Part shown: one piece after another, positions 20,254 through 47,761 of the stretch
Layout: each line of letters starts with the position of its first letter
How positions within the stretch are numbered: the stretch's first letter is position 1
Assembly (NCBI GenBank): GCA_030077755.1
Contig: JAQJZZ010000020.1
Coordinates: 372,001-436,000, forward strand
DNA length: 64,000 bases
Direction: 5' to 3'
DNA from: Filosporella fistucella
Taxonomy: Eukaryota; Ascomycota; Leotiomycetes; Helotiales
The notes under the pieces: model-generated
Seen by the model: the letters and a program-made list of their open reading frames with translations, nothing else
What the model was told of the DNA's origin: nothing
Databases searched by the model: none
Position numbers and translations under genes: made by a program

Positions 20254-20641
20254 ATGGCAGAAGAACAACACGTCTATAAGTTCGGTGTTAGCATGAGCTG
20301 TGGTGGATGCTCGGGCGCTGTTAACCGTGTGCTTGGAAAGCTGGATGGTTTGTCTCCCTCATATTCTGCCCTTCCCTTCCTTTGTATCCCAATCTTCCCT
20401 ACTCTCCTCTGCCCTCTCCCCTCTATACCTCCGCACTCTATCCAAGAAATGGAATCTCATTTCTACAGGCGTAAAATCCTACGACGTCTCCCTCGACACA
20501 CAAACCGCGACCGTAATCGCCACCCCGGAGCTCTCATACGACAAGGTCTTGCAGACTATTAAGAAGACGGGAAAGAAGGTTAATACGGGTATGGCGGATG
20601 GAGAGGTTAAGAGTGTAGAGCTTGTGGAGGAGACGGCTTGA
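20254..20641 (+). CDS. ATX1: ATX1-like copper metallochaperone
   Basis: Two exons (20254-20347 and 20469-20641) with a 121-bp intron encode 88 residues. The metal-binding MxCxxC motif is MSCGGC at residues 14-19. The beta-alpha-beta-beta-alpha-beta pattern follows, with the splice joining GKLDG to VKSYDV, then TATVIATPELSYDKVLQTIKKTGKKV, the last containing the conserved Lys-rich helix. Such proteins carry Cu(I) to the secretory-pathway P-type ATPase. It sits next to the HxxHC oxidase-like cluster, whose enzymes may need copper, but it is most simply a housekeeping gene. Confidence 0.93.
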
Positions 20642-21843: not shown

Positions 21844-24143
21844 CTAATTCAAGCCAAGATCTTCATAAAATGCCTTTGCATTTGGTTCACGACCCAAAAA
21901 CTCCTTCAGAATCTCTGCCTCATCCTGACTACCTCCCTTCTCCAAAACAAGCTTGCGATATCTCCTTCCCTCTTTCTTATTCGTCACATCACTCTTGAAA
22001 GCAGTGTAGAACATGTCCGTAGAATAAACCTGAGAACTATTTTCTTGTCAGTAACTAGATTCTATACTTACGATGCTAGACTTACAAGAGATAGCTGTAA
22101 TACCCAGCATCATACTCATTCATGAAATGGCTGATCGAAACAAAAAACGAGCTCCACTCTTCTCTCTCCTCAGAAATATCAAACATCTGAAGCTCTTGGA
22201 TCATTTTGTTATACTCCATGACTAGATCCATACTCTCAATCACCTCTCGACTCTCAGGATCATGGATTTTCAGATCAAACATAGCGAGCAATACTTGGCC
22301 AAGCAGGAAGTTAGGTTTCTCGCAATACTTTGTCCTAATAATACCTTCAATCATCTCATCCGGGATCTGTGCGGGTGGCAGAGGGGCGCCATTTGACTTT
22401 TCGTTCCAGATTTCAAGGTGCTCGGCAGAAATGGAAGCATAATGTTTGGCCAAGGATTTCAAGAAAGATGGTGTCCAGCACCAGTTCTCTAGCATCTGAC
22501 TCGGGGCTTCTCCGAAATCGAGAGATGTGTTTGTACCATGGAATCGTGAGTATGTTGTTCTTGATACCATGTTGTGGATACCGTGGCCAAGCTCATGGAA
22601 GAGCATAACAAGATTATGCTGGCTTAAAAGGCAGAGTTTGGTAGAAGTTGGCTTGGAGAAACTGCAGAATAATATTGTGCTGGGGTAGTGTCTTGTGCCA
22701 TCTGCTCTAATAAATCCCTATGTCTACTTAGTGGGTATTTTCGAGCAGTGGACTAGAATTACACACCGGCTCTAAGGTATAGTTGAATTCCCCAGCATCT
22801 TTTCCCGTTCTGGCGAACAAGTCGAGATAAAAATACCCTAAGAATTCGCCGCCGAGATCTTCCTCGTCCCAAACACTATATACTCGTACCTCTGAGTCCC
22901 ACACAATATCCTCATTGGAGATCTCCTCGAATCGAATACCAAACAGTGCTTCAAAATTGGCTAGCATCCCCCGAATAGTTGTCGTTATCTTGAAGTATTC
23001 AGCCAATTTTGACCTATCCAATGGATGCTGTGTCTGCGCAAGTTGGCGATTATAAAATGCATAATCCCAGGGGTAAAAACGTCCGTCAAAGCTCTCCCCT
23101 TTTGAATGCAAATCAGTTTCCTTCAGCTTTCTCAACATTTCGAGTTCTTCTTTCCCGCTTTCAAGGAGACGGATCCTCAAATCATGCAAAAACGCATTCA
23201 CAGTGTCTGGGCTTTTAGCCATCCTGCCCTCCAATCGCGGCATAGCATGGCTAGCATAACCCAATAATCTCGCTGCTTCATCGCGCAGAACCACCACTTC
23301 TTTCAGTAAAGGCACATTCTGTACACAAACATTGCTCTCTGCAACCTCGAATCTCTTCCGTACCTCACTATTATTCACCTGCACAGAGATACCACATTGA
23401 TCAGGATCGTCAAGACATATTCGCACTTTTCCTTTGTTTTCTCCAGTTCCTTTCTCCAGGGTACATAAAATATCCTGCGGAGCGCCATCTAGCTCATTGA
23501 GAGTGAACCAGATACTGCCAGCATCAGCTGTCCTATTCCGTCGAAAATTTGTCGCAAGATGACTGATTCGATTTCCAATGGTTCTGAAACGCAGTCGATC
23601 TGGTCCTTCTGGAATAGCCAAGCCATTCGTTATGAAGTCCTGATGCATTCTTTCCACCAGTAGCTTAGACTCCGATTTGATATCTTCTCGTCTTTCCCTG
23701 ACGGCACGGACGAGATGATAGAGTGTCTCGTTTTTCTTTCTCTTCGATCGAAAGGCGTCGAGAAGTTTCCGCGCTGAGGTTGATGCGTTGCCGACATCCA
23801 GATGAGTTGATGTCACTTGATAGAGAGTGAGGATTGGAGCGTGGAGATTGATGGAGTTTTCTATGCTGGCAAGGGGGATAATTGTATTTGTGAAAGTGGC
23901 ATCTTTAGGACGAATGTCATGGATAAGGTCGTCTTGTAATTTTTCCCAATATTTTATCAGACTCTGGGTCTTATGGAGAATCTCCGTAGAATCTTGGAGA
24001 ATTATTGGAGGAGCTTGAGGGCATTCCCTGGGATGTTTCGATATCATCGTGATGCTATATTCTATGGGAGCTTTATACAGTAGCGCAGCCTGTTGAAGAA
24101 CAATAAGAAGTATAAATCGTCGGTTCCTGGATGTGTGATGCAT
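21844..24143 (-). CDS. M3-family zinc oligopeptidase (thimet oligopeptidase-like)
   Basis: Three exons (24143-22767, 22717-22086, 22036-21844) with 49-bp introns give 733 residues. The zinc motif HELGH is in MLFHELGHGIHNM, followed by the downstream Glu in TSLDFGEAPSQMLENW. Other M3 hallmarks are GYFYLDLFARTGKDAGEF and, in the last exon, VYSTDMFYTAF. The second intron's acceptor at 22037 was chosen because it restores SQVYSTDMF. The first 30 residues are hydrophobic; a Met at about residue 33 is an alternative start. M3 enzymes cut short peptides. Fungal dikaritin clusters such as that of phomopsin include an M3 oligopeptidase as I recall, and this gene lies next to HxxHC genes, so precursor trimming is a plausible role. 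Confidence 0.9.
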
Positions 24144-24446
24144 TAAGTATTTGAAAACTTCACACAGAGTTTGTCACATAATCTCATGGAAGCATGATTA
24201 CCTAACAACTGTGAAACTCACGTAAGATTTGTTTGCTTGGTCTCAGCGTACAAATTGTTACGGGTAAACAGTTGACCGCTGATGGTAGTATACTATTTCA
24301 TATTTCATGCCCACGTTTTCGACATCTTGAAAAGCACTTGTTCAACAGATGATCATGTCTCATCTTTTCACTTTTCAATACGTGCTAGTGACTGCAATTT
24401 CACTCCACGAGTATCATTTATATTTCCTATTAAATCGATGGACAAT
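24144..24446. other. intergenic region
   Basis: No gene seen; upstream region of the M3 peptidase and 3' flank of the next minus-strand gene. Confidence 0.5.
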
Positions 24447-25130
24447 TCAATGATGCTCAAAACTCTGTGAAAGCTTGACCCCATCTACAACTCTATACCA
24501 CCCCGCCCTACTAGCTTCTTGTTTTGACACAGGACATTCTACAAACTTTGCAAAAATTATCGTGTTCGTCGCGTTGATAGCGCTCTCGTGATCCACCAGC
24601 ATCTGCTCGCAGTGTTCCGTATGCATCATACTTCCAATATAACCATCCAGTATTGCTCCTCTCAGTACTGCTCTGTGCATCTTCCTCCACATATAAGTGC
24701 AATGATACATATGGTATTCCTGCGTCACATATAGCTGATAATGGCCACCAGCCAGTACAGAATTCACATCAACGCCATGCTTTCCCTCCTCATCCAAAAA
24801 CCATTCCCAATCTCGCAATGCCAGGAATTGGCGTGATAGCTCTTCATCGAAACAAGGTTCTGGTAGCCATGCAAATGATGTTATGTCGAAGTGACAACCA
24901 AGAGATATTGCTTCTGTGGCTGAGGTACCGCAGCTTTCTAGGCCATGAGTCTTGTCTCTTCGATCTAGATAAATGTATAGAGCAGAGAGGGATATGATAA
25001 TTGCGGTGATAACTGCAAAGAGACGCCGGGGTTGAGGCCAACGCCGTGTTGAACCAATTCCAGCCCTCTTAGTCTCTGTCTCCCACTGTTCCTCTATACT
25101 ATTCCGGTTGGGTAAGGCACCGTATGGCAT
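24447..25130 (-). CDS. UstYa/DUF3328-like membrane protein, CG-EA-GC subtype (copy 1)
   Basis: Single exon, 227 residues; the ATG at 25130 is used because the frame upstream has no ATG. One membrane span at about residues 35-58 (FAVITAIIISLSALYIYL) leaves a lumenal C-terminal domain. After it comes SCGTSATEAISLGCHFD and then a conserved Trp-x-Pro. Two HxxHC motifs follow, in YHMYHCTYMW and MMHTEHCEQML, the paired motif of UstYa-type proteins that oxidise or cyclise core peptides in fungal RiPP pathways. The CG...EA..LGC block is shared with the proteins at 32952 and 34079, and so defines a subtype within this locus. Exact reaction unknown. Confidence 0.8.
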   Translation of the reverse strand: MPYGALPNRNSIEEQWETETKRAGIGSTRRWPQPRRLFAVITAIIISLSALYIYLDRRDKTHGLESCGTSATEAISLGCHFDITSFAWLPEPCFDEELSRQFLALRDWEWFLDEEGKHGVDVNSVLAGGHYQLYVTQEYHMYHCTYMWRKMHRAVLRGAILDGYIGSMMHTEHCEQMLVDHESAINATNTIIFAKFVECPVSKQEASRAGWYRVVDGVKLSQSFEHH

Positions 25131-25698
25131 TTTCACTTGACTCTCAATCTCAAAGTATATTTCGGTTGATCATTCCGTGATATCTTCAGTGCAGGCACAA
25201 TGCGTACCGTTGCCACAATTTTATTCTTTTCGTCTCAGATCAGAATGTATGAGGAACATGAAAGTGAAGCACCAAGTGGATTGTTAGAAAACAATCCCCA
25301 AATTAGTGGCCCTGCCAGAAATGAAAGATAAAGTAGTTGCCATATGTCTCTAGTTGAATTTTTTTGAGACCGGAGAGGGATTCCTGGCCATGAGGCACAG
25401 TGCTTGGTTGAATATCTCGTAATATGTAGCAGTGGGGCCACCGAGCATCACTTAATGACTGCAGTAGGCTTACGTGGAACGTGACACAATTCAAATCGAA
25501 GCGAGAAACTGCGGCTTATGACGAAAACCACAGCTTACAATACTACCAATAACCCAGTGAACGTGGTCTAGGATTTGCATTCCTCCTAAAAGGCTGATGG
25601 GGGTTGAGCTGTTTACGAAGCCACCCCAACGCATTGTTTGCCAATTTACAACAGGAACATACCTCATTTGACCTCCTATCAAATTTTTTCTCTAGACT
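25131..25698. other. divergent promoter region in the HxxHC cluster
   Basis: Lies between two oppositely transcribed HxxHC genes. No gene or clear motif seen. Confidence 0.5.
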
Positions 25699-26810
25699 AT
25701 GTTTTCATCATCTTTTGAATCTGAGGACCGCGCAGAGTCCGAAAAAACACTTCTCGAATCTTCACCAACAACATCTGATTTAGCTGTGTGGAGAAAGAAT
25801 TCCAAAAGGAAACTACAAATCCATTCTTACATCCCCTGGACGATTTCATTTATCCTGTTGATTATAGTCATCCTGCAATGGAGGCTGGCAAAGCCAGTGG
25901 ACTGCCAAAGAGTCGCATTCTGGAAATATCATGAAATCGGTCAGTTTGAGGATAGCAGCTATCAATTTTCAGCGGTGTGGACTTTCTGTCTAACAAATCT
26001 GTGCATTTATAGAGGGTGCCAGACGTGAAATTCCCCCCAAATTCAAAGAGGTTAATTTCACTGGGGGTTTGAAAATAAAGCCAGGTGTTGGTCTGTACCG
26101 TGACCAACCACCAGATCTACCTGCATATGTTGGACCTCCTTCTCCGGAGATTGATGCTGCGTGGTCAAAACTCATAGATCGTAAGAAATCAAGGTTTTTA
26201 TTTTATGAATAGTACCAACTAATCGCCATTTCAGCACTAGATTTGTTCTTGACTATGGATGAGGCGGATGTTATGGGAACAGAAGGAATGGGTATCGAAC
26301 CTGCGTCAGGCTTGTATATGGCGATGTGAGCTCATAGCATATAGCCTCTCTCCATATTGCTGACAGTAATTAGGCCACAAGGTCTTCATGATCTTCATTG
26401 TCTTGTAAGTAGGAAACCTCAACACCGAAAACAAATATGACTAACAATATTGCAAGAACATGCTTCGCAAAGCCTTAACTTTAGACAAATATCCTGAAAT
26501 GCAATCTGAGGTACTGCAAATACATCTTGGTAAACTCAAACTAATCCTAGGTTTGAAGGATCAGTGCTAATTCCTTGTAGAACATTGCATTGACGCCATT
26601 CGACAAAGTCTCATGTGTACCAGCGACATGACGATTATCAAAGAACATTGGACAGTGCATAAGCTTCCAAATGGTGGTATGATTGGTGATTTTGATAATG
26701 TTCATATGTGTCGTGATTTCGACTCCATAAGGAGCTGGGTCACAAGTAGAGATGCAAACGATGAGGATGTGTGGCCCATTGTTGCTGAAAGACTGCGAGG
26801 AAGTCATTGA
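25699..26810 (+). CDS. UstYa (DUF3328) family protein, classical subtype (copy 2)
   Basis: Six exons: 25699-25939, 26013-26180, 26235-26325, 26374-26404, 26457-26529, 26581-26810, giving 277 residues. One membrane span at about residues 47-64 (WTISFILLIIVILQW) follows an acidic cytosolic tail. The two hallmark motifs are rebuilt exactly by splicing: HDLHCL joins NMLRKAL across intron 4, and IHLEHCIDAIRQSLMC across intron 5. This matches the HxxHC pair of UstYa/UstYb, membrane proteins required for oxidative cyclisation of ustiloxin-type peptides. Intron positions next to the motifs are similar in the gene at 27408, so the two are close relatives. Confidence 0.88.
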
Positions 26811-27407
26811 AGAGCCTGATTCTCGTTACTTGTGGGATAACTTCAACCTTAGTTTCCATTTTCAAATTTTTGAAGTAGTGTTCGAACGTCGTGGCTCATG
26901 GTCATGTTTGTGCAGACGTCACTTCCTCCAATTCAATAGGCACGAATTTAAATCCCTCCTGCACCATACACTATTATTGTCATGTATTTCTCGTATAAAT
27001 AAAACAGAAGATAAAACCATATTCGTTCGTATTCCAGCATATCTCCTGACTACGATAAGATTGCTGGGCAATGTACTGCCACTTCCACATCAGGGCCAAT
27101 GAGGCCGCGATAAGCAACAATTAAAACAAGAGACCCAATGGTATGAGACCTAGCATTCTAGATTTCTTAATCGCCAGCGATGAACATCATTCCCACGTAA
27201 TGCATGTGGTAATCTTCGTCGGCCAATCGAATCATCGGCATACACGTCCGTTGCCAACACGAACATCAGAATATCGAGCCTCCCGAGCAATTAAGGTGAG
27301 CATCTGCACATCTTCAGAAGATTTGGTGTGATTACTGTTCAGTCGCCCAAGCATCGACCAGGACTCCAGAAAGTGTTCTTCCAGAGGCAGAATTCGTCGC
27401 ATTCACT
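26811..27407. other. intergenic region
   Basis: No gene supported; open frames are short and without domain. Upstream region of the next UstYa gene. Confidence 0.5.
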
Positions 27408-28365
27408 ATGTTCACAAAATTCAGCGGGTATAAGTCGCTTCGAAGGAGCGAAGACTCTACAAATGACAAACAGGACTTATTCCTACACAGGAATGAATCC
27501 CAAATGAGAAGAGCTTCAATTCTGTTTTATCTCGCCATTCTTCATATTTTGTTGCTTCTTGCAGGCACCTGCATCTTACAGTACCATCAGCAAGTCAAAG
27601 CATTGCAAGTACGGTTACTTCCATCAGAACTTCGTAAGTCTCAAGCTTGCTTTTGCCACTCATGATTGAATTGGGTTAGAATTTGCGAAAGACGCTATCA
27701 AGTATGAAGAGATCACATTTGAACCCAGCGGTTTCTGGGAAGATGAGTCTCAGCATACTTCATTTGAAGGCCCTATGTCTAGTGAAACAGAGGAAGCCTG
27801 GCAATCTTTGACAAATGGTAAATCTCGATAATTTCTCTGGACTGTTTAGTTTTGCTAACCCTGCGGAGTCGGAATGCTCTCTCTCAGTCAAGATGAATAC
27901 AACACATTAAATGTCAGCACAATAAAGGTCCCAGGAGACCCTAATCGATATCTTGTTACTATTGAGATGTTTCATCAACTTCATTGTCTTGTAAGTCGTA
28001 ATTGTTTTGCGTTTTCATTACTTTTATCAAGAACTAAACTTTAATCCAGCATTATATCCGCCAAAAGTTATATGGTGTAGCTCCCCCTGAATTGACTGCG
28101 CACGGCGACAAGGCACACATAGGTACGTCGATCTATATACTTCTCAAAGCTACGACATGGGAAGTTAACGCAAGCAGAACATTGCGTGGACTATCTTCGT
28201 CAGGTGCTCATGTGCCACGGAGATCTAACGCCCATTACACTGGCTTGGAGTGAGGAAATGGATTGGGTGAAGCCAAACTTCAGTATTCAGCACACATGTA
28301 GAAACTTTCAGAGTATTTGGGATTTTGCCCTGAGCAGAAATCACTCAGGAATTAGTATAGAATAA
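27408..28365 (+). CDS. UstYa (DUF3328) family protein, classical subtype (copy 3)
   Basis: Five exons (27408-27633, 27680-27817, 27869-27990, 28050-28132, 28179-28365) give 251 residues. The membrane span is at about residues 38-58 (ILFYLAILHILLLLAGTCIL). The first motif is MFHQLHCL, joined to HYIRQKLYG across intron 3; the second is HIEHCVDYLRQVLMC, formed across intron 4. These are near-perfect UstYa consensus motifs. It sits in tandem, same strand, 597 bp after the previous UstYa gene. In characterised pathways two different UstY proteins often act together, so this pair may form one functional unit. Confidence 0.9.
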
Positions 28366-28843
28366 AGTTTTGCCTCCAGGGTTATGTTTGGAGTGGTTCA
28401 TAGAAGCGAACATAAGAAGTGAAAGAACAGTTCCACGAAATTCAGTGTCAGATGATTGAAGCTTAGACTAACGTGATGTGATTTCTGAAAGAGGCTTCAA
28501 AGAGTTAGTAATAATTTCCCTAGGATCAGGGAGATTCTTGCTCGGATTAGATGAATCTTTTTTTGAGTGCTGTCAGACGATGTTTTCTTACCACACCACT
28601 CGCTTATGGAGGATGCGCAGTGTTGCACCAGAGCTCATGCCTTTAGCTTACCTCATGTATCTGTACATTGTAGTGATGTCTCTCCAGATCTTTTGCTAAC
28701 AGAAATGGGGAACGAGTTTGGTGTGTCGCTTTGTAATGTATTTGTTCACAGTCAATTTCTATCCATAAACGCCACAGGAAATCCCCCTTTCTTTCCACCT
28801 TGTAACGTCGAGATTTTGAGATTTTGAGATTTTGAGTCACGAT
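28366..28843. other. intergenic region with a short tandem repeat
   Basis: No gene supported. Just before the next start, 28810-28836 carries about two and a half copies of a 10-bp unit, gagattttga. Confidence 0.5.
28810..28836 (+). repeat. 10-bp tandem repeat in the 5' leader of the DOMON-b561 gene
   Basis: The unit gagattttga is repeated head to tail, ending seven bases before the ATG at 28844. It could affect leader length or be neutral. Confidence 0.7.
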
Positions 28844-30139
28844 ATGCATTTCGCTCTATTATCACTGTGGCTTGTGCCTTTTGCGGCTACGGTTCTGGCT
28901 ACGAATCGCCATTCCCAATATTGCTACTCATCGGAGAGTGTACTGTCGAGCTTTTGCGTCTCTTTTGCTCGAAATGAAAACTACACAAGTCAAGGCATCG
29001 ACCTATACTTGACTTTCTCGGCCCTACCAACATCTGTAGGAGGAGGTTGGACTGCAATCGGAACAGGAGAGTATATGGCAGGCTCTCTGATGTTTATATT
29101 CTGGGCAGATGAGAGTAGGGAGAACGTTGCTGTGTCAGTGCGAACCGCTACCACCCATACCGAGCCATTCACAGACAGTGGTCTTCCTCAAGTCGAAGTA
29201 CTCCAAGCAGAAGCTTCGAAGCATGGTTCTCATGAAGTGAAGTTAGTTTGCTACTCCTGTGGTAAATGGGAATCCCTGGACTTCCACGACAAGGCACAGC
29301 CTTGGATTTGGGCCATCAACTATTTTACCGAATTCCCATCGGCAGATCCGAATTCCCACCTTGGAGACCACCAATTGCACAATATATTCTATGCAGATAT
29401 GACAGCACTCCCTCCGACTCAATCTTCCAATCGCGAAATGATGCTTCCAACAATACAAGGCATAGAAAATGTAGGGACATGGGATCAGCTTTTACCGCTA
29501 TCATCTTCAACACACCATGGGAACGGCTTTTGGCACGGAACTCTTATGACTGTAGCTTTCATGGGAATCATGATACCCTCAGCAATCTATAAGAGGTGGA
29601 AGCCAAACACGTCGACTCACCTGTGGATTCAGGTTGCTGGATCAACTCTTTCTCTTGTTGGAATCTTGCTGGGTTTATCGGAAGTCAACTGGAGGATCTC
29701 TTCATTTGGAATACATCAAACACTCGGTCTTATTACTTATTGTCTGATTATGCTGCAAATATTCCTGGGCACCCAGATTGTAGGTTCAAGTCATGAGAAA
29801 CATGTAAGGTCTTATCGCCAAGTTCATCGGTGGTTCGGCCGAGGCATACTCGCGCTCGGAATTTCAGAGGCGGGCTTGGGCTTGATGATTGCAGGAAGTG
29901 GCACTACAAGGCTAGTTGTGTTTCTTGTGTCTACTCTTTGTGAGTTGTTTCTGTATCTCTGGCTTAGCCCCGGAGGCGGCAGTGAGAAGATCAACTGGAG
30001 CAGCTTAATGAGAAATTACGGCAGGAAGGATATGGGGAATCCAGTCCTAATGTCTGAAGAAGATGCTGATCTGACAGACCTCGTTATAGAGGAGGATTCA
30101 TTGGACGAGGTCTACTCAAAATCTCACGATAGAATGTAG
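28844..30139 (+). CDS. secreted/membrane DOMON-cytochrome b561 protein
   Basis: Single exon, 431 residues from the ATG at 28844, which opens on a signal peptide (MHFALLSLWLVPFAATVLA). Residues about 20-185 form a DOMON-type domain (WTAIGTGEYMAGSLMFIFWAD), a haem- or sugar-binding fold like the CDH cytochrome domain. Residues about 215-390 form a cytochrome b561 membrane domain with the conserved His in HGTLMTVAFMG, THLWIQVAG, HQTLGLITY and HRWFGRGIL, enough for two haems. A cytosolic acidic tail follows. Such proteins pass electrons across membranes. It is embedded between UstYa-like genes, so it may supply or accept electrons for peptide oxidation; that is inference. Confidence 0.88.
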   Translation: MHFALLSLWLVPFAATVLATNRHSQYCYSSESVLSSFCVSFARNENYTSQGIDLYLTFSALPTSVGGGWTAIGTGEYMAGSLMFIFWADESRENVAVSVRTATTHTEPFTDSGLPQVEVLQAEASKHGSHEVKLVCYSCGKWESLDFHDKAQPWIWAINYFTEFPSADPNSHLGDHQLHNIFYADMTALPPTQSSNREMMLPTIQGIENVGTWDQLLPLSSSTHHGNGFWHGTLMTVAFMGIMIPSAIYKRWKPNTSTHLWIQVAGSTLSLVGILLGLSEVNWRISSFGIHQTLGLITYCLIMLQIFLGTQIVGSSHEKHVRSYRQVHRWFGRGILALGISEAGLGLMIAGSGTTRLVVFLVSTLCELFLYLWLSPGGGSEKINWSSLMRNYGRKDMGNPVLMSEEDADLTDLVIEEDSLDEVYSKSHDRM

Positions 30140-30621
30140 GATTCACTCAAAATATCATAGGTGCTAGCTTAGCTTTAAATAATTACAGCGATCAAGATTT
30201 CGGTTGAGAATTGTTGTTTCTAATCATACGGCGGGCAATATTCAAGATAAGAGAAAAAGGTTTTGGCGTTCTCCATGACCTAGCCAGAAGACTGCTTCAT
30301 CAACCTAAAAGCACTACAACAAGTTATTGATGAAATAATGTCCTGTGTTTCTTTCTCATTGCGTTACACTAAAACGAACTGCGAAGTATTCAGCCAAAAA
30401 AGGCAGAGCAAGATGAATAAGTAGCACAATAAAGTCGAGCATCTTCGATTCGAGATGGAGAAAACAACCAATAGAGATTCCTCGACAAAGCTAAAACTTC
30501 AAAGTACCAAAAGAACTAGGCAGAAACTGGGAAAGCTTAGCAAGAGTAACACGAGGTGTCGTGTAGAAAGGCTGAAAGCATACCAAATTTAATCTTTTTT
30601 AAGCTATCTCAAATATCCGCT
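30140..30621. other. intergenic region
   Basis: No gene seen between convergent genes. Confidence 0.5.
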
Positions 30622-30831
30622 TCACCAGTGGTCCCATCCTTCCAAAGCATTGAATAATGCTACCTTCCTTGCTTCCTCTTCATCCACAGTCACAGGTATA
30701 ACTTCTTGATCCCAGCGATCCAAATCTTCAAGCGCGAAAGGCTTGTTCCGAGTTGCTATAATGGGATATTTTGGAATAAAGAGGCCGGTGATAGTGGTTG
30801 CAAGCAATAAAGCAACGAGAGTTTCCCGCAT
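30622..30831 (-). CDS. tiny secreted protein, candidate second peptide precursor
   Basis: 69 residues, single exon. The start MRETLVALLLATTITGLF is a strong signal peptide. The mature part is acidic and contains DRWDQEVIPVTVDEEEARK, ending FNALEGWDHW at the C-terminus with two Trp residues. There are no cysteines and no dibasic site in the mature part, only single Lys/Arg. It has no recognisable domain. Its size, leader and position among HxxHC genes fit a single-core RiPP precursor or a small cluster accessory protein. It is also small enough to be chance, but the signal peptide argues for a gene. Confidence 0.55.
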   Translation of the reverse strand: MRETLVALLLATTITGLFIPKYPIIATRNKPFALEDLDRWDQEVIPVTVDEEEARKVALFNALEGWDHW

Positions 30832-31793
30832 TATTAATCTGAGAAGTGTATAAATTAGGAAGATGAAGAGTCAACAAAGCAATTGAATGGCGAGTCTATC
30901 GTTGAGAAAAGTACAATGGAAGTGTGAGGCAACCTGTTCTGACTTGCAGCCATTTGATCTCGCGGGTGAATGAAGCTGGATCCTAAGTCCTAGCCACCAT
31001 CAGCCGACTGGGGTACGTGATGGGGAATCATTGGCTTACTGTACAACAGCCAGACATCACATAAGAACTCTAATAATTTCTCACCTCATACCTAGAACCC
31101 CACAACATAGTTTCTGAGAGGGCAATTACGTTAAGTAATTGGCATTGCATAGATCCATGCTCCAAGCACTGAAGGATTTTATGTATCTTGATTTTGTGAC
31201 ACGCCGAGTAAGTCAATGACTGAATAATTTGGATGTTGTATAGTGCATTGCATAATCTGGTAACCAACCAGCATAGGGCACTAGTATTGTGTTAGCACAT
31301 CCTGGAAAGAGTATAGAGTTGTGGGTAAACTGATACTCCGTCTTGCCTGAGGTGACTTTTCGGCCGCGAATCTCTAGCACAGACCGACTGATGGAAGCAC
31401 TCCGTTTTCCCATTCAACTGTGCGACGTCTAGCAGCAAGAAAATACCGTTTAACTTTTCATTCTCTCTACCATTATCTTAAGAGATAGGCTCTTTATCGA
31501 TCAGGATGTTGGAAATTGTGGACTCGAGCTGCGACTCGGTTCGACTTGGCGAGTTTGACCTCAGAGTTCTTGCCACGGCTTGTACGAGTACTGGAGCTGG
31601 ATTCAATCTTACTGTCAAAAGCCATGACGGCAGAGAGTTCAGTATTTGGATTGCGATGATCCAGTATTCTCACGTCCTGTTGCCATTGACTGAAGCAATT
31701 GAAGCATGCGAGGACTTCCTTACAAATACGCGAAAAGAGTTGCTAGAACATTTTATCATTACTTTTGAAACAGATATCCTTGGATATTCTCAG
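30832..31793. other. divergent promoter region, possible ToxE-box-like site
   Basis: Between the tiny secreted gene (minus) and an HxxHC gene (plus). An in-frame extension of the plus gene back to 31506 is open but does not look like a UstYa N-terminus. A near match to the ToxE box is noted separately. Confidence 0.4.
30957..30966 (+). promoter_or_regulatory. possible tox-box-like site (ATCTCGCGGG)
   Basis: As I recall, the ToxE regulator of HC-toxin genes binds ATCTCNCGNA; this site matches nine of ten positions. It is about 125 bp upstream of the tiny secreted gene. A single near match this short is weak evidence. Confidence 0.25.
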
Positions 31794-32546
31794 ATGGCGA
31801 AACCAAAATTCTTGCTTTTGGCTAGTTCTGGGCGGATATCAACAAACTACGATCCGTCCGATAAAAGCATTGATCTTTCTATGAATGAAAAGAACGAGGA
31901 GGAAAGCCGTCTCATATTTGTTACGGATGCAATATCAAACGTTACATCTCCTTCAAGGACGATGAAGGTCTGGGTTGGATATTTGCTTATATTTGGTATT
32001 GTTCTTGCTGGTGGGCTTTTCAAAATCTTGACTCGGAAGCCTGCAAGATACGAGAGATACCCAACTCCGGGAAGCATAGGACCCAAGCATCAGTCAAGGC
32101 TTCTTTACAATAACGCCACGTCATGGGCGCGCGATGTCTCTTTTGATGACAAAAACTGGAGGATTCGAATTGACGATCAGGCTCTGGTTCCAGCACACCT
32201 GTATACCACCGATGAAGACCATTACCAGAAATGGTTCCGACAACGCTACCCTCACTTACAAGAAATTGTCGAGCGTCATGACTATCTACGTCCTTCATGG
32301 CTAGGTTCATCCCAAATTGCTGTCCCCTGGGATGAGCAATTTCATTTCGCTCACTGTGTTCTTGCGTTGAGGCGATACTGGACCGCGAAAGAAACAGGAA
32401 CGCATTTGTGCGGAAGAGATATTGATTACGCTCATATAAAACACTGCTTGGACTCTTTGGATGAGAAGGCTTTTCCCCCAGGTCCAATGGAAGACGTTGG
32501 CAAAGGATATAGACTATGGTGGCAAACTAAAGTCTGTTACGATTAA
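31794..32546 (+). CDS. divergent UstYa/DUF3328-like protein (copy 4)
   Basis: 250 residues from the ATG at 31794; the frame stays open upstream to 31506 but that part lacks family character. A membrane span at about residues 58-80 (VGYLLIFGIVLAGGLF) precedes a lumenal domain. The paired motifs are FHFAHCVLALRRYW and YAHIKHCLDSLDEKA, both HxxHC. The spacing between them is about 30 residues. It lacks introns, unlike copies 2 and 3, and the CG-EA-GC block of copies 1, 5 and 6. It is therefore the most divergent member in the locus. Function is inferred from the motif pair only. Confidence 0.72.
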   Translation: MAKPKFLLLASSGRISTNYDPSDKSIDLSMNEKNEEESRLIFVTDAISNVTSPSRTMKVWVGYLLIFGIVLAGGLFKILTRKPARYERYPTPGSIGPKHQSRLLYNNATSWARDVSFDDKNWRIRIDDQALVPAHLYTTDEDHYQKWFRQRYPHLQEIVERHDYLRPSWLGSSQIAVPWDEQFHFAHCVLALRRYWTAKETGTHLCGRDIDYAHIKHCLDSLDEKAFPPGPMEDVGKGYRLWWQTKVCYD

Positions 32547-32951
32547 ATTTAGGGATGGTCTCGCGTGTCGACCAAAACAAAATGGCAAGGTTCTGTTACC
32601 CAGCTGGGAGATGATAAAGAACCTTCCTCGAAACCGCTTTGTGATTACCATATGCAGTATAAGACTTGAATGGCACTTCTAATTGTGCTTGAAAGTGAGA
32701 GAAATCACTTATACATGTAAAATTCAGTTACGAATCCTAGCGTCAACATGTTAAATCTTAGTTAGACCTACATCGCACAATCTTGATCAAAGGGATGTCT
32801 ATGCCCCACTGAGGTAGCAAACCCTATCTACTCGTGCAAATTGTAAATTGTAATCATTTCCACATTCCGAATCAAAGTGATGTTGTGAAAGTAATGGAAG
32901 ATTTGGGAAAGTACAATGTGCCGCCAGAGGATACATTGAATTATGTCTTTT
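32547..32951. other. intergenic region between convergent HxxHC genes
   Basis: No gene seen. Confidence 0.5.
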
Positions 32952-33737
32952 CTAATTCTTAACAAAGCAACCAGCTTGACCGACAAAAACTGGTATCGGC
33001 ATATTCCTGAATTCGGTCCCGTGATCTGTCATATCCACCAAGAAGTTCGCACAGTGGAGAGTATGTTTTCTACTCGCAATCATAGAGTCAAAAACTCCCC
33101 TCCCATCAAAAAATGCCTGGTATTGCTTCACCCAAAGCATTGCGCAGTGGACAATGTGATCCCTGGCTGACGTATAATACACATCCTTTTCTCCCATCTG
33201 ATCAATGGTCAGAATCTCCGTCCTGTTCCAATCAGCGTACCCGAACCATGATCCATCTGCCTGGTATTCTTCGATGGCTCTTTGGTCGATACAGATATCC
33301 GGCAGCCATTTGCCGACCAATATGTCATACTTGCAACCAAGTGATTTTGCCTCCGATGTTGAAAATCCGCAACTCAAGAGATGTGCGTTCGTTGCGAAGT
33401 CTCCATAGTCACTATGATCTGACAGTTGGAGCTCGTGATATGAATTAGTTGACATGTTGGAGAGGTGCTGAGAATGGCAGCTTCCCCGGAATAATAGTAT
33501 GCCTGCCCAGAAGAGAGACGTAGCCAGAAATATAGCCAGGTGCAAGAGGTTTGGATGTAGCTTAGAATTGTCATATTTACAAGTTCGCAGCCGTTTTCGC
33601 ATGCGTGGGCCTAGAGAATCTGGGCTTTCTATAGATTCGTGGCCTTCGATAGCAAGAAAAGGCTGTGACTCTGCCTTGAGAGACATAATGATGTTTCGGC
33701 CTTTCAAAGTAGTGATGATTGTTTGAAGAGCTACCAT
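32952..33737 (-). CDS. UstYa/DUF3328-like membrane protein, CG-EA-GC subtype (copy 5)
   Basis: 261 residues from the ATG at 33737; a Met at 33686 is an alternative start that keeps every domain. The membrane span is at about residues 66-84 (LAIFLATSLFWAGILLF). The lumenal part has SCGFSTSEAKSLGCKYD, then KWLPDIC, and the paired HxxHC motifs DHIVHCAMLWVKQYQ and KHTLHCANFLVDM. The layout is the same as in the proteins at 24447 and 34079. It is transcribed divergently from copy 6 with a 341-bp spacer, suggesting shared control. Confidence 0.8.
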   Translation of the reverse strand: MVALQTIITTLKGRNIIMSLKAESQPFLAIEGHESIESPDSLGPRMRKRLRTCKYDNSKLHPNLLHLAIFLATSLFWAGILLFRGSCHSQHLSNMSTNSYHELQLSDHSDYGDFATNAHLLSCGFSTSEAKSLGCKYDILVGKWLPDICIDQRAIEEYQADGSWFGYADWNRTEILTIDQMGEKDVYYTSARDHIVHCAMLWVKQYQAFFDGRGVFDSMIASRKHTLHCANFLVDMTDHGTEFRNMPIPVFVGQAGCFVKN

Positions 33738-34078
33738 ATTGGATATTGGCTGTTGAAAACGCGTTGTTCCTGAAGAATAGGGGCCAAAATGAAAGCGCAG
33801 GCGGCTGATGGTTTCTTACCTCATACATCAAGCGAAAGGGGCGAACACTCACCTAAGCCGCTCCCAGTAAGCACAACTACTGTCTTTTCCCTGCTGATCG
33901 CAAGTGCCATTGATATTTTGGACATCACGGTAGACAAAAACTTCATACAAACTCTCAGCATTACAATTACTTTCCGCCGATTTTCATCCTTCACACTTGA
34001 TTCCTCCCGTCCCAAATTCACAATCAACTATTCTGGCTCTTGATTCACGACCCAAAATCTTTCAAAGTTATAACTGGG
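33738..34078. other. divergent promoter between two HxxHC genes
   Basis: 341 bp with no gene and no strong motif seen. Confidence 0.5.
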
Positions 34079-34768
34079 ATGGAGGCGAAGTCACTTTACC
34101 ACAGTATTAGCACCAACGACATAGAGGATCATGTCGGAGATCAAATATCGTCCTCAGAAAAAGATCTCAGGAGAGGAAATACGAATACACATACAACTAG
34201 AATCCTCCTATATGTCTTTATGGGAATATGCATCGTAGTCTTGATGATTGGGAGTGGCTATAGGTTGTTGCAACCTGATGTTGGCAAGCGCAAAAATACC
34301 AGCGGACATCAGACTCAACATTCAGCTCTGAATCCATGTGGGAATTCTTCTACGGAAGCTCGGGCTCTTGGATGTACCTTTGATCAGCTAATGTGGGCTT
34401 GGTACCCAGCGGATTGCCCGCACTACGCCAACGAGAAATTTGTGACGGCTGAACCAGGCAAGCCATGGCGTTACTATGATAATCTCTATCACGGAAAAAT
34501 TGTGTTTCCGGAGGACGAGAATTGGGTGGAGGTTTTGGACAGTGGAGTTCAGCTCTATGGAGAAAGGAGAGAGCATTTGACGCATTGTGTGTATATGTTT
34601 CTCAGTGCTGGGGAAATCATATGGGGAGGGGGGAGATATGTTCCAAAACTAGTCAGCTCTAACCACTATGAACATTGTGTGGCTGTCCTTCTAGATGCGC
34701 TTCGACAGGACAATACTTGGTTTGATATTGAGACGACCGTGCCTAAACCAACTTTTGAATCTTGTTAA
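34079..34768 (+). CDS. UstYa/DUF3328-like membrane protein, CG-EA-GC subtype (copy 6)
   Basis: Single exon, 229 residues; the ATG at 34079 is the first in frame. The membrane span is at about residues 41-62 (ILLYVFMGICIVVLMIGSGY). The lumenal part has PCGNSSTEARALGCTFD, AWYPADC and the paired motifs EHLTHCVYMFLSAG and NHYEHCVAVLLDAL. Comparison with copies 1 and 5 shows conserved Cys in CG and LGC, probably a disulfide pair, besides the HxxHC residues. It lies 711 bp upstream of the repeat precursor, on the same strand. Confidence 0.8.
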   Translation: MEAKSLYHSISTNDIEDHVGDQISSSEKDLRRGNTNTHTTRILLYVFMGICIVVLMIGSGYRLLQPDVGKRKNTSGHQTQHSALNPCGNSSTEARALGCTFDQLMWAWYPADCPHYANEKFVTAEPGKPWRYYDNLYHGKIVFPEDENWVEVLDSGVQLYGERREHLTHCVYMFLSAGEIIWGGGRYVPKLVSSNHYEHCVAVLLDALRQDNTWFDIETTVPKPTFESC

Positions 34769-35361
34769 ATGTAACTATTCTCAGATATGGATTAAGTTAT
34801 ATGACCCATTTAGTACTCAAAACAGCATCGAATTGTTTCACTGCTTTATATTTTGCAAATCTCAACGAAATTTTCCTTTATAAGTTGACTTGAGTGATAC
34901 AGATATCTAACTCCAAGCTACCAGACATGGAATATTTCTTTCTTTTCAATTTCCAGACATCTTCCGTCTTCCGTGGAGCTTGTATTTGCCAAGACTAAAA
35001 CAACATGATTTCAATTTAAGTGCTACACTAACTTCATCCTTGTCCCTCATGTGCTGGACAGAACGAAGTGCCATAAGCTTACTGCATGTTCCTGCTTATT
35101 AATTACTGCAAGTTGATTGTTCTTTCATTCTGATGAAGCCACTGTCAGCCAAGAGCGGCCGCTGGTCAACCAAACACAACGTAAGCTGCAGGCGCAAACG
35201 TAATAATACGCAGGGACACATAATCGACATAGAAATATTACGTTTTGTTTCCCATACTAATGACAAGAGATTATCAGGAACTATTTTTGCGTGAGTAAAT
35301 GGAAGCTAGAAAGCCATCCATAGTAGTTACTAGAGCGTACTCATATCCAAATTATACGAGT

Positions 35362-35370
35362 ATTATATAA
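35362..35370 (+). promoter_or_regulatory. TATA-like element of the precursor gene
   Basis: attatataa lies about 110 bp upstream of the ATG at 35480, a normal distance for a strong fungal core promoter. Confidence 0.45.
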
Positions 35371-35385
35371 AGCAGGCAGATTCAT

Positions 35386-35395
35386 ATCTCGGATA
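35386..35395 (+). promoter_or_regulatory. weak tox-box-like site (ATCTCGGATA)
   Basis: It shares the ATCTC half and the final A with the recalled ToxE consensus ATCTCNCGNA but lacks the CG. It lies between the TATA-like run and the precursor start. Low weight. Confidence 0.15.
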
Positions 35396-35479
35396 GCAAC
35401 AAAAATCCAGATATCCTCTTTCATCTAAACTCTCTCATCCGTGCCAAAATCCACCCAACAAGCCAAGAATATTAAAGCC

Positions 35480-35924
35480 ATGCGTTTCCAATCCCTTCTC
35501 ATCGCTGCCATGGCAATGGGCGTAAATCTAGCCACTGCAGTTCCAGTTGCTGGTACTGAGAGTGGAATTATTGCCAGAGACCCACAAGGAGGTGATAGAA
35601 ATGCAAAAGGCTACGGGGGAAAATACATCCGTAAGTTGGATGCTCTGAACTAATTTAGAAAGCGTATTTCTTAATCGACGAATGCCTGATGTGGAAATAG
35701 GAGCCGAAGAAGACCTCACTGCAAGAGACCCACAGGGAGGTGATAGGAATGCAAAAGGCTACGGGGGAAAATATATCCGTAAGTTGGATTCTATAGACTA
35801 AAGAAGCATACTACGTCATTTATAGATGATTGACATGCAAATAGGAGGCGAAGAGAGCCTCGCCGCAAGAAACCCACAGGGAGGGGATAGAAATGCAAAA
35901 GGCTACGGGGGGAAATACATTTAA
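35480..35924 (+). CDS. secreted three-repeat peptide precursor (candidate RiPP precursor)
   Basis: Three exons: 35480-35630, 35701-35778, 35845-35924, giving 102 residues. The ATG at 35480 opens a signal peptide (MRFQSLLIAAMAMGVNLATA). Then come three copies of PQGGDRNAKGYGGKYI, identical in all 16 residues, each preceded by AR-Asp or AR-Asn and linked by the acidic spacers RAEEDLTA and RGEESLAA. Each repeat sits at the end of its own exon. The two introns share their first 11 bases and their last 4, so exon and intron were duplicated together. Codons differ only silently inside the 16-residue core, a sign of selection on the peptide. The layout matches Kex-processed repeat precursors of dikaritin-type RiPPs, although cleavage would be at single Arg rather than KR. 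The two Tyr are candidate crosslink sites. Confidence 0.85.
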
Positions 35925-36434
35925 GCTTTTGAGGGGCGGGAAAGCTGAGGAACAGCTAGCCCTACCTCTTTTCCCTACATGAAGCAGCTCATGAATCATT
36001 GCCGAGATAGTTTAACACTTCGACTGTTGCTACACAATATAAACCTGCCATAGTCCCAATTTTATATGAATGGATTGTGAAATGTAGTCTGGTTTTGTTT
36101 TAGTACCTTACACCGTGCATCATGTCGGTCAGCTGCTCTCGTGAATCCTTATGATATTTGCTTCCTGAATGGCCTACCGGGGGGCTGATGACATTCTTAC
36201 GGATGCATTGCAAATCCATTTACCTATGCCGTGAAACCTCGTGAAAGTGCACCGGGTAATATCCGCGCCCCACGCTAAGACACTGCAGGTAGGTAACCTG
36301 GTACCCTCGTAATACCCCACTAATACTTAAAATCCCAAGGATGGCTATCTACCTGAGCCAAAGTGGAATATGAGTCCATTGCTCACCAAGAGCCAAGCGA
36401 AAATTCTCCCTCAAGCTTGTGCACCTCTGGGTGA
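35925..36434. other. intergenic region
   Basis: No gene seen; upstream of the bZIP-ankyrin regulator. Confidence 0.5.
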
Positions 36435-37441
36435 ATGGATGAACCACCGATGGCAATTGACGCAAAGGAGCGTAAAAAGCAACAAAATCGCATTGCACAA
36501 CGCACATATCGTGAGCAAATTCTGTTCCTGCACCCTTTTGTTTAGCTCACTATATCTGACGGAATTCGGAGGTCAAAATCAGAAGCAACGAATAAGGGCT
36601 CTAGAAAAGGCTTTGGAAGCATCCACCTTGCCCCAACCATCGATTCCAATTGAAGCATCTTTAACTAACACTACGATTTGTGAGCCTGAGCCTAATGACA
36701 ACTCTGACGGCCCTATCGATCCGATGTGGTGTTTCCACATGGACGATAACATGTATTCAAGCAATTCAAGCGTTGAGCTTTCTAGTATGTTGGATCTAAG
36801 TGTTCCATCAGTTGAGCCTTCGCTAGAAAGGGTATGTGGAATTAATTCTCCCTACCTCAAGAATTACGTGATTTCTAAGCAGTTCTGCGGATTCTCTCAA
36901 ATAGTTCAGATCTTTCATGGAAGGAACACTGCGGATTTTTGAAGATTCCAAATTCTTATTGGATTCGGATTAATCATTGGTCGCTTCTAATTTCTTTCAG
37001 GCTGCAAATGATCTTCAATCCGAATTTGTCAATATTCAAGAATCGCCTCCGAGTCGAGGTCGAGCAGCCCTTCACCGTGCAGTCTGTAATAAGAATGAGT
37101 CAATGGTCCGGCTGCTTCTTGAGCAAGGAGCGGAGCTTGGAAGACAAGATCATAACGGTCAGACTGCATTACACATAGCAGTTGAGAGTGGACAAGATAG
37201 CCTTGTCAAAGTATTACTCGATGGGAGTGATTCGAGTGTGAAGGACTCGATGGGTCGAACGGCATTGTTTTGTGCCGTTAAAGCAGGGAATGATACTGTA
37301 ACGAAATTACTTTTGGATGCATCGATTGATGTAAATTGCAAGGACTCTGTCGGTGAGACTGCTCTCCACGTTGCGGTCGAGATGGGGTTCGAGTCATCAA
37401 CTCTCCTTTTACTCAGTTATGGAGCTGATATCGATGCCTAA
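36435..37441 (+). CDS. bZIP-basic-region plus ankyrin transcription factor (ToxE-like)
   Basis: Three exons (36435-36510, 36572-36831, 37001-37441) give 258 residues. The first splice rebuilds a bZIP basic region: KKQQNRIAQRTYRQNQKQRIR, with the N-x-x-A-x-x-x-R-type core, followed by a short coil without a full leucine zipper. Four ankyrin repeats fill residues about 120-258 (RAALHRAVCNKNESMVRLLL, GQTALHIAVESGQ, GRTALFCAVKAGN, GETALHVAVEMGF). This basic-region plus ankyrin layout is that of ToxE, the pathway regulator of HC-toxin synthesis. Position next to the precursor suggests it controls the cluster. Confidence 0.88.
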
Positions 37442-38770
37442 AGCCTTGATTCAATTTTCAAATACAATATGAAAAATGCTACTGCTGACATTGACATGTT
37501 GTCACGGTACTTGATCGGTATGCATTCTACGCCAATTCGCTAAGCGAGGAGGAAAAGGGGGGGACCGTGACGACTCCCGAACAACAGAGTGGAAGTCTTT
37601 TATCACCTCTGCTGAAAGCAGTTACTACTCTAAGTTCAGCAAAATTGCATCCTATGAATATCTCATTCTTTAGTATGAGCAGTGTATCCTCACCGCGACA
37701 ATCGTACATCCCTTGAATTTCTTAGGAATCAATATCAATGAAACGCCCCCAATATTTTTGAGGAACCACTCCTGCAGGTACTTCTCCAACGCCGTCTCTC
37801 TAGTTAGGTCAGACTTTCTTGCTGCATTCGCGAGATCCTGCTTTGCCTTTGGACCTCTAGCAGCTGCAGAGTAAACCTGAGAGTTTGCGGCATTGTAGTA
37901 TTCACTACATCCATGATCGTCAGTGAATGAAGGTGCACCGCCTCGGACCTTGCGGTAGACATATTGAGGCTGCGAGGTTTATGGTCGATGCAGGCTACAC
38001 GGGTTGGCAGGATCTCTTGCTGGGATGGGTGGGTAGTTGGAGGTGTTGGAGATGGCTTGGTTGACGGCGTTGCCTCCTGAAAGTGATTTATTGGCATCAT
38101 TAATGGAACACGTTTTGACAGAGTTGAGTTCTTAATGTGGCTTTTTTTAGAGATAGATAACTTAGCCAAATATACAATCTCTTAAAGATGAGGAGAGAGA
38201 TAGTAAGCTCGCCTGTCCTGATAATCGTCGGATGAAGAGGAAGTATGATTTAGGAGAGCGTGAAGCTGACATCTATGTTGAGCCGCGAAAATCGTAAATT
38301 AACGCTCAAAAATTGGACGGCCTTGGTCCTAAGGACGACAGTGATCTGAAACTCTACGGTCTAACAGATATAAATGTTATGAATACACTATATAATGAGA
38401 AGTAACAAATCCTGAGATTTCCATCACCACGAGCTTTAGATACCATACATTCTTTAGCATATTTATTGCACCTGGTATTGAGATCTGGGCACGCTTTATA
38501 TTTTTGTTTGGCATCAATGTGTGGGCTCGCACTATATTCCTGGGTGCAGAACCACAGAGAGAGATAAGAAAACCTGTCGGTGTGTAATATTCCTTAGACT
38601 GGCCCTTCCCTTTCTACAAACAGGTTTGTCGAGAGTCTCGTTGCAAGAGGACATAAAAGCAAAACTGAAAACAAAGAGAGAAACAATGGCATGCAAAAAT
38701 ATTGCAATATAAGTAGACCCAAGAGTCCATCTTTGACTTCTTGGGCAGAAATCTGGCAGGAAACGATGGA
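37442..38770. other. intergenic region
   Basis: No supported gene in 1.3 kb. A minus-strand open frame at 37804-38169 encodes a Ser/Pro-rich stretch without domain. The region may mark the edge of the cluster. Confidence 0.4.
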
Positions 38771-46377: not shown

Positions 46378-47761
46378 TATTCGACGAAATTTGAGACGCC
46401 TATAGGTGGGAAGTTTTAGTCGTGAAGATCTGTTTTTTATGCATGCGGAATTATCTGTTGAACTGGATATCAAAGTGAGAGAAAAGGTTGATTAAGCCTG
46501 GTGCTCATGCCAGAGCAAGTTGGATGGTAGCCTCGTTGCAATTGGGGGCTGAATTGAGGCTGAATTGCTGCCATAAGCGCGCGAAACCAGCCAATGGCTG
46601 GCCGTGTGCTGTTGCAAGTCTGACCAGTCGGCCATCATTACTACATGAGCCCGACCTTGAAGAGTCACAAGCTTGGCAATGGTTTTGTGATTCGATTACA
46701 GAGAACGTTGATAACTAAAGAATTATGGACGTGCGCGATTGTTTCGCATTAACCCAAATTGTCTCGCCTTACGAGTTAATTCGAGGTACCGACCCTTATA
46801 TCGATTATCCATAAATTTGCACGTGATAGCAGCCACAGTACAAATTAGTGATTTCATCTTTGATGTCGGAGGCCTCCGAGCTTGGATAAGACTCCTTTAT
46901 ACGTATTAGAGATTGCTTGAGCTCGGTGGTAGGCCTATGGTGGAAGGACTTTGTGACCCTATAAAAAATACTCTTTACAAATTAGGTGTGAGGGCGATGA
47001 TGCAAAGGCGGCTTGTTAATATTGAGGGTTCTACGTGTCTGAGAGTGGCCACGAAACATAACTAACAAGAAATTTTAGAGCGTATTGAGCTTTGCATAGA
47101 TTTCAAGATGCTTGAAGTCAAAGTAACGTCTGTCTCTACTTAGCGAGAAACCCCCCGTGCCGAGCAAATGAGGGGTACTGTTGTTTGACTTGAAATATAT
47201 TAAACTTTGTGCAAATATGATAAGTATTATACTTATGCAGAACTCGTGTCCTATCGCCACTGCTAAACACTCTGAGCCAATTCTACTAGAAAATTACTTT
47301 TGCATCGTTGCACTTGCGCTTGGTTTATAAACAATCTCTGCATGTAGTGCAAAAGCGTTCCTTTACCGCAGCTTTATCATCGAGCTTTTATCACTTCTGG
47401 AACTTATGAAAATGTGATTCCCGAGTCTTAGGGCTTTACTACTTCGCTGGAGGTCGCTATCAACTTTGTGGCTGCCATGGCGCTGATCTTCATGCAATGT
47501 CGCAATGCTCATCAGTACCTCTAGTCCAAAAGGAAACTGAAGGCCGAAAAAACTCTACCAATCCCACAGAATACGGTGCACGTAGTACACAGTATTTTTA
47601 TTTTAGACCGCTGTCCGGATCGATCCAAGCGTTGTCTGACCAGTTGTCCGTGCCGATGGAAGAGCACAAGGCTGAACTGAACCACGTCATCAACCCAGTT
47701 TTCCACATCCTACAGACTCCCTCTACAGTACTGCTTTCGCCTTTGATCGCAACACAAATAC
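46378..47761. other. intergenic region
   Basis: No supported gene over about 1.4 kb. It is AT-rich from about 46730 onward. Short open frames have no domain. Confidence 0.45.

Follow-up and report, generated by a model that had tools for sequence, protein, structure and literature searches.

The 64-kb window analysed here (contig JAQJZZ010000020.1 of the Filosporella fistucella assembly GCA_030077755.1, positions 372,001 to 436,000 of the forward strand) carries, within 15.6 kb (21,844-37,443 in window coordinates), eleven modelled genes that probably make up a variant dikaritin-like cluster for a ribosomally synthesized and post-translationally modified peptide (RiPP). They comprise an M3 oligopeptidase, six membrane proteins with paired HxxHC motifs (Y1 to Y6), a cytochrome b561 fusion protein, a 69-residue protein, a repeat precursor and a regulator. 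All of the genes that an original prediction, made from the DNA letters, had placed in this interval were found there, and the open reading frames (ORFs) scanned from 21.8 to 37.4 kb included no gene recognised as unrelated. Searches beyond the window covered the genome assembly (45.8 Mb, 19 contigs), and transmembrane (TM)-like and signal-like segments were called by hydropathy throughout.

A repeat precursor with a selected core peptide

The top-scoring of four tandem repeats in the window (35,576-35,920; Tandem Repeats Finder score 446), with units spaced 148 and 144 nt apart, belongs to a single-copy gene on the plus strand (35,480-35,924), flanked on one side by the HxxHC genes, with Y6 0.7 kb from its start, and on the other by the regulator. 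Its predicted exons (35,480-35,630, 35,701-35,778 and 35,845-35,924) are separated by GT-AG introns, one of 70 nt (35,631-35,700) and one of 66 nt (35,779-35,844), both of the form GTAAGT...TAG, with branch-like CTGAT and TTGAC, respectively, at -15. Only upon removal of these two predicted introns do the three cores join into one protein, the predicted product of splicing being 102 residues long. The precursor has a hydrophobic, signal-like N-terminus and contains three copies of (D/N)PQGGDRNAKGYGGKYI; the 16-residue core PQGGDRNAKGYGGKYI, which has two tyrosines (GYGGKYI), is identical in all three, as had been predicted, and the spacers between the cores read RAEEDLTAR and RGEESLAAR. Each predicted exon encodes one core, and the intron belongs to the duplicated unit.

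All six variable sites of the 48-nt core are synonymous third positions, an outcome whose chance probability was 5e-5 to 2.5e-4 in simulations under three transition weights; counted over the 51 nt that take in the D/N codon, the differences number 3, 5 and 6. Between the two 26-nt spacers there are six nucleotide and three amino acid differences, and the two introns are identical at 47 of 70 aligned columns. Because variation in the core is only synonymous while spacer and intron diverge more, selection acts on the core peptide. Such selection argues against a chance neighbourhood, in which unconnected HxxHC genes and a tandem repeat of young, lineage-specific origin would have no function in common, as do the lack of any recognised unrelated gene in the interval and the pairing of Y5 and Y6 in three fungal classes presented below. 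Although the single-copy state of the precursor and its lack of detected relatives speak for it, a mere coincidence of genes is extremely improbable.

Six double-HxxHC proteins of three kinds

All six Y proteins carry one TM-like segment and, downstream of it, two motifs in the arrangement HxxHC(x)nHxxHC. They had been described collectively as UstYa/DUF3328-like; the six double-HxxHC genes are indeed present, but only two of them, the canonical UstYa genes Y2 (25,699-26,810, plus strand, six exons) and Y3 (27,408-28,365, plus strand, five exons), pass the cut-off of the Pfam UstYa family PF11807 (E 6e-37 and 8e-45, respectively). The divergent double-HxxHC protein Y4 (31,506-32,546, plus strand) stays below this cut-off (E 0.27). 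It carries ~150 extra N-terminal residues ahead of its TM-like segment (31,506-31,960, plus strand), possibly a fused domain, to which no Pfam or NCBIfam family matched, and no paralogue of Y4 was found elsewhere in the genome. Y1 (24,447-25,130, minus strand; motifs HMYHC and HTEHC; no Pfam match), Y5 (32,952-33,737, minus strand) and its divergent neighbour Y6 (34,079-34,768, plus strand) have no match to PF11807.

Common to Y1, Y5 and Y6 are C-G-x-S-x-x-E-A, L-G-C and W-x-P motifs next to the two HxxHC motifs; judged by sequence, the three belong to a widespread family with its own cysteine signature for which Pfam holds no model. A protein database search with their alignment returned 77 proteins, 75 of which have two HxxHC motifs and 61 the CGxSxxEA motif; PF11807 was weakly touched by 6 of 36 scanned family rows, with a best E of 0.033. 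Alignment of the CGxS and UstYa profiles with hhalign placed both HxxHC motifs in register, at a probability of only 38% (P 3e-4), and none of the solved folds compared with the CGxS family matched it convincingly. A common origin of the two families is likely.

Scored by tree distance, a nearest-reference assignment on a tree with long branches, 22 of the 77 family proteins are closer to Y5 and 55 closer to Y6, with none closest to Y1. Each of the four same-contig pairs among the 77 proteins, a pairing inferred from equal base counts and names (contigs of 1,398,625, 130,550, 93,901 and 10,400 bases), consists of one Y5-type and one Y6-type protein, and such pairs occur in Cadophora sp. (Leotiomycetes), Colletotrichum camelliae (Sordariomycetes; locus tags 10651 and 10653) and Lophiostoma macrostomum (Dothideomycetes). 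The closest named homologue of Y6 is a partial protein (85%) from Cadophora sp. MPI-SDFR-AT-0126 (Helotiales). Since they are divergent neighbours here too, Y5 and Y6 look like an old functional pair. Further Y5-type and Y6-type matches occur without a partner in the list, which says little because the list was condensed by clustering at 90% identity and takes in scored candidates only.

Genome-wide, at least 20 UstYa genes (27 exon matches grouped) and at least eight CGxS-type genes were counted. Five of the CGxS genes counted lie beyond the window. Two of these have a UstYa gene less than 5 kb off, at 2.0 and 3.9 kb, the chance of two or more such proximities being 1.5e-4; for the remaining three the distance is 13.6, 228 and 769 kb.

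A candidate electron donor and other partner genes

The gene at 28,844-30,139 (plus strand) fuses a DOMON-like cytochrome domain of the cellobiose dehydrogenase (CDH) type (PF16010, E 1e-16) to cytochrome b561 (PF03188, E 2e-7). CDH cytochromes supply electrons to copper enzymes, the lytic polysaccharide monooxygenases, and the build of the present protein would suit it to carrying electrons through the membrane to copper on the lumenal side. Against such a role, it is the only one among the CDH-cytochrome loci found (21 exon matches genome-wide) that adjoins an HxxHC gene found. A perfect GAGATTTT tandem repeat (3.4 copies; 28,810-28,836) stands just upstream of this gene.

The M3 oligopeptidase (21,844-24,143, minus strand) consists of three exons (22,767-24,143, 22,086-22,717 and 21,844-22,036), two of which match PF01432 (E 6e-45 and 2e-46); it carries an HELGH motif and is open through both introns. 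One of four M3 genes in the genome (six exon matches grouped), it would be fit for peptide trimming. The phomopsin cluster likewise contains an oligopeptidase. Elsewhere in the genome (C3:306808-307587; L014), an M3 match from a six-frame search runs across seven stop codons, which may represent introns or a decayed copy.

The regulator (36,435-37,440, plus strand; three exons, modelled after removal of two introns) shows four PF00023 stretches and matches PF12796 at E 6e-29, and its basic part matches bZIP_1 below the cut-off (E 0.003), covering profile positions 6-34 of 64. With a basic region and ankyrin repeats it falls into the bANK class, the absence of a zipper being read from the bZIP_1 coverage only; the basic region and ankyrin repeats of the bZIP-ankyrin protein originally proposed thus stand, but no zipper was recognised. 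Regulators of the bANK class have been tied to cyclic-peptide clusters and are known from the HC-toxin and apicidin clusters (PMC4109984). The DNA motifs of ToxE and Apf2 showed no enrichment here.

The 69-residue protein (30,622-30,831, minus strand), a putative accessory protein or second precursor, is single-copy in the genome, and its sole homologue found, 72% identical, is from Cadophora sp. MPI-SDFR-AT-0126. Both of the two tiny secreted genes that had been predicted are present, but the secretion of this one was read from a hydrophobic N-terminus alone, which falls just below the TM threshold used. The 69-residue protein, and not the repeat protein, could be the main substrate or obligate partner of the HxxHC enzymes: it is the only small gene with a homologue, on what is inferred to be the same Cadophora sp. 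contig as the Y5- and Y6-type homologues, and the repeat precursor was found neither in Cadophora sp. nor anywhere in the database searched. The absence of the precursor from Cadophora is weak evidence, however, because annotation often misses small genes, and the 69-residue protein has neither repeats nor a cleavage pattern, while the strong conservation of its acidic C-terminal half in the homologue resembles that of a segment that folds or binds. We regard this alternative as very unlikely.

Repeat proteins at other HxxHC loci of the genome

Eleven other HxxHC neighbourhoods, each 10 or 20 kb long, were scanned for exact repeats, a set that leaves out C2 216-231 kb and the surroundings of eight further UstYa genes. 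Four of the 11 hold a repeat protein, and a more sensitive repeat scan of the same 11 neighbourhoods yielded nothing further. The junctions are KR in the protein on C2 near 232 kb, mixed single and double basic on C15 near 2.01 Mb, single basic plus KK on C9 near 6.11 Mb, where the frame changes inside the array, and single basic on C9 near 2.86 Mb.

These loci bear on the alternative that the precursor in the window is an ordinary secreted repeat peptide, whether signal, pheromone-like or effector, that is released unmodified while the HxxHC genes act on something else. Most repeat precursors surveyed lack DUF3328 neighbours (6120 of 7878, as given in PMC7329392), no database relative ties the present one to HxxHC genes, and single arginines are unusual for dikaritins. 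Its position, 0.7 kb from Y6 and with the regulator on its other side, speaks for modification in contrast, as do the repeat precursors at four of the 11 other neighbourhoods and the two tyrosines of the core, a residue reported in 65.6% of repeats beside DUF3328 genes versus 38.2% otherwise (PMC7329392). Release of an unmodified peptide is, on these grounds, unlikely.

Several features of these other loci deserve mention in their own right. On C9 at ~2.86 Mb, a CGxS gene has an S10 carboxypeptidase frame ~0.5 kb off and a repeat array 2.7 kb off; the array counts 52 units of D(V)AAPKS(V/A/L)R and is almost without tyrosine. With a P450 match at C9:2867094-2867978, the stretch at ~2.860-2.866 Mb (L046 4024-9570) is a possible second single-arginine repeat-peptide cluster. 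The EPHHTEAQIAAKKAKAAKNARDVEVEAR repeat protein on C9 at ~6.11 Mb (L048 ~1500-3100, minus strand) lies near two UstYa matches, and its frame changes look like introns. Repeats of the IKAA(I/V)DAISxxDY type occur in two precursors near UstYa genes, on C2 (L040 ~1026-1500, plus strand) and C15 (L047 ~2000-3200, minus strand).

Enzymes searched for and flanking genes

Searches run exon by exon, in which short exons can be missed, placed none of 32 tyrosinase and none of five S41 peptidase exon matches genome-wide in the window, and the 106 P450 matches listed, from a search that scored 92 of 211 candidates, include none in the window. No methyltransferase or transporter was recognised among the ORFs scanned, which were part of the window ORFs. 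The lack of tyrosinase, P450 and methyltransferase noted in the original prediction is thus borne out for tyrosinase exons, for P450 among the matches listed, and for methyltransferases only within the ORFs scanned.

The flanks look ordinary, with genes for a PP2C (15.2-16.2 kb) and for a thiolase (40-41.6 kb). An ATX1-like copper chaperone (20,254-20,641, plus strand), whose second exon matches PF00403, lies 1.2 kb from the end of the M3 gene; it would be relevant if the HxxHC proteins were copper enzymes, but is probably a housekeeping gene. A fungal incompatibility gene of the NLR-like kind, coding for a HET plus NACHT-type (NPHP3_N) protein, also lies near the cluster (43,747-46,491, minus strand).

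Assignment of the cluster and proposed pathway

The locus is best read as a UstY-type RiPP cluster: it has a pair of UstYa genes and four other genes for double-HxxHC proteins, its precursor is under selection, and it holds both a regulator of the cluster type and an M3 gene in addition to three elsewhere. The Y5-Y6 pairing, the CGxS gene on C9 with its neighbouring repeat array and S10 carboxypeptidase, and the dicopper, electron-requiring nature of the DUF3328 enzyme CctR (PMC12435403) add to the case. What the analysis shows directly is the set of genes, their open frames and motifs, the selection on the core and the proximity of the two HxxHC families at other loci. A number of findings weigh against it. 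The precursor holds no dibasic site (KR, RR, KK or RK) anywhere, its repeats being flanked by single arginines, and it has no relative in a search of 5.8 billion proteins and therefore no conserved link to HxxHC genes. No tyrosinase or S41 exon fell in the window, no promoter motif beyond chance is shared across the cluster, repeat precursors accompany only four of the 11 other HxxHC neighbourhoods, the CGxS-UstYa profile similarity is weak (38%), and the next nearest CDH-cytochrome locus lies ~31 kb from an HxxHC gene found. To call the gene set a dikaritin hallmark was therefore too strong, given the absence of dibasic sites, the failure to find tyrosinase or S41 and the lack of a database relative of the precursor. 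We nevertheless consider it probable that the locus is a dikaritin-like RiPP cluster built on a variant plan, in which dicopper HxxHC enzymes would oxidise or cross-link the core peptide.

In the pathway proposed for such a cluster, the bANK regulator would turn the genes on and the precursor would go into the secretory pathway. A protease would cleave at single arginines (between AR and D, and between YI and R), yielding three copies of (D/N)PQGGDRNAKGYGGKYI. Lumenal HxxHC dicopper enzymes would act on the core by oxidation or cross-linking, its two tyrosines (GYGGKYI) being the likeliest sites, with the b561/CDH-cytochrome protein carrying electrons across the membrane and reducing the copper, and the M3 peptidase would trim the peptides. 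More tentatively, and as a possibility that we rate as less than even, the locus might be a self-contained system for dicopper RiPP oxidation that combines HxxHC pairs of two families (the ancient Y5-Y6 pair and a UstYa pair), a dedicated CDH-cytochrome/b561 donor and a single-arginine precursor invisible to present mining rules.

The b561 gene amid six HxxHC genes provides one candidate natural electron donor for DUF3328 enzymes, the donor of the DUF3328 protein CctR being a hypothesis so far. Rules based on dibasic sites and counts of HxxHC genes based on Pfam only can miss part of fungal RiPP space; four of the six HxxHC genes and the precursor escape them here.

Comparison with known systems

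UstYa/DUF3328 is described as the class-defining dikaritin enzyme; tyrosinase and S41 peptidase formed part of earlier definitions, but working clusters without tyrosinase or peptidase were reported later (PMC12048977). The dikaritin clusters (ustiloxin, phomopsin, asperipin-2a; victorin) and the present one are alike in their UstYa/DUF3328 genes, signal-like repeat precursor, cluster peptidase and regulator. They differ in that dibasic junctions are replaced here by single arginines, each predicted exon carries one core with introns inside the repeat unit, the HxxHC genes number six and are of three kinds, a b561 gene is present, and the peptidase is M3, with no S41 peptidase or tyrosinase found.

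Kex2-processed repeat proteins (KEPs) have been defined in the survey by Umemura by at least three repeats of at least 8 residues between KR, KK, RK or RR (PMC7329392), while an earlier survey required KR, RR or KK (PMC6339444). The precursor resembles them in its signal-like N-terminus and three repeats longer than 8 residues, but has none of KR, KK, RK or RR between the repeats and so falls outside the definition; lacking any dibasic site, it would be listed by neither of these published rules.

In CctR (DUF3328; Huang et al. 2025), HxxHC(x)nHxxHC is reported to form a binuclear copper site at the dimer interface; the enzyme requires O2 and electrons, and its authors put forward the hypothesis that an accessory protein transfers the electrons or delivers Cu(I) (PMC12435403). 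Dicopper UstY enzymes are also cited as forming the ether between Tyr-O and Phe C-beta in asperipin-2a (PMC12186524). A TM segment followed by HxxHC(x)nHxxHC is seen in CctR as in the six proteins here, and the chemistry originally suggested, resting on HxxHC proteins and electron transfer by b561, agrees with the dicopper, O2-dependent and electron-requiring nature described for CctR (PMC12435403). Unlike the non-ribosomal peptide synthetase (NRPS) context of CctR, the present context is RiPP-like; four of the six proteins here fall below the Pfam UstYa cut-off, and the copper role of all six is putative. In line with the bANK assignment, ToxE, Apf2 and Aps2 (PMC4109984) show the same N-terminal basic region and four ankyrin stretches with no zipper recognised; their neighbours are NRPS genes, whereas the regulator described here stands in a RiPP-like cluster.

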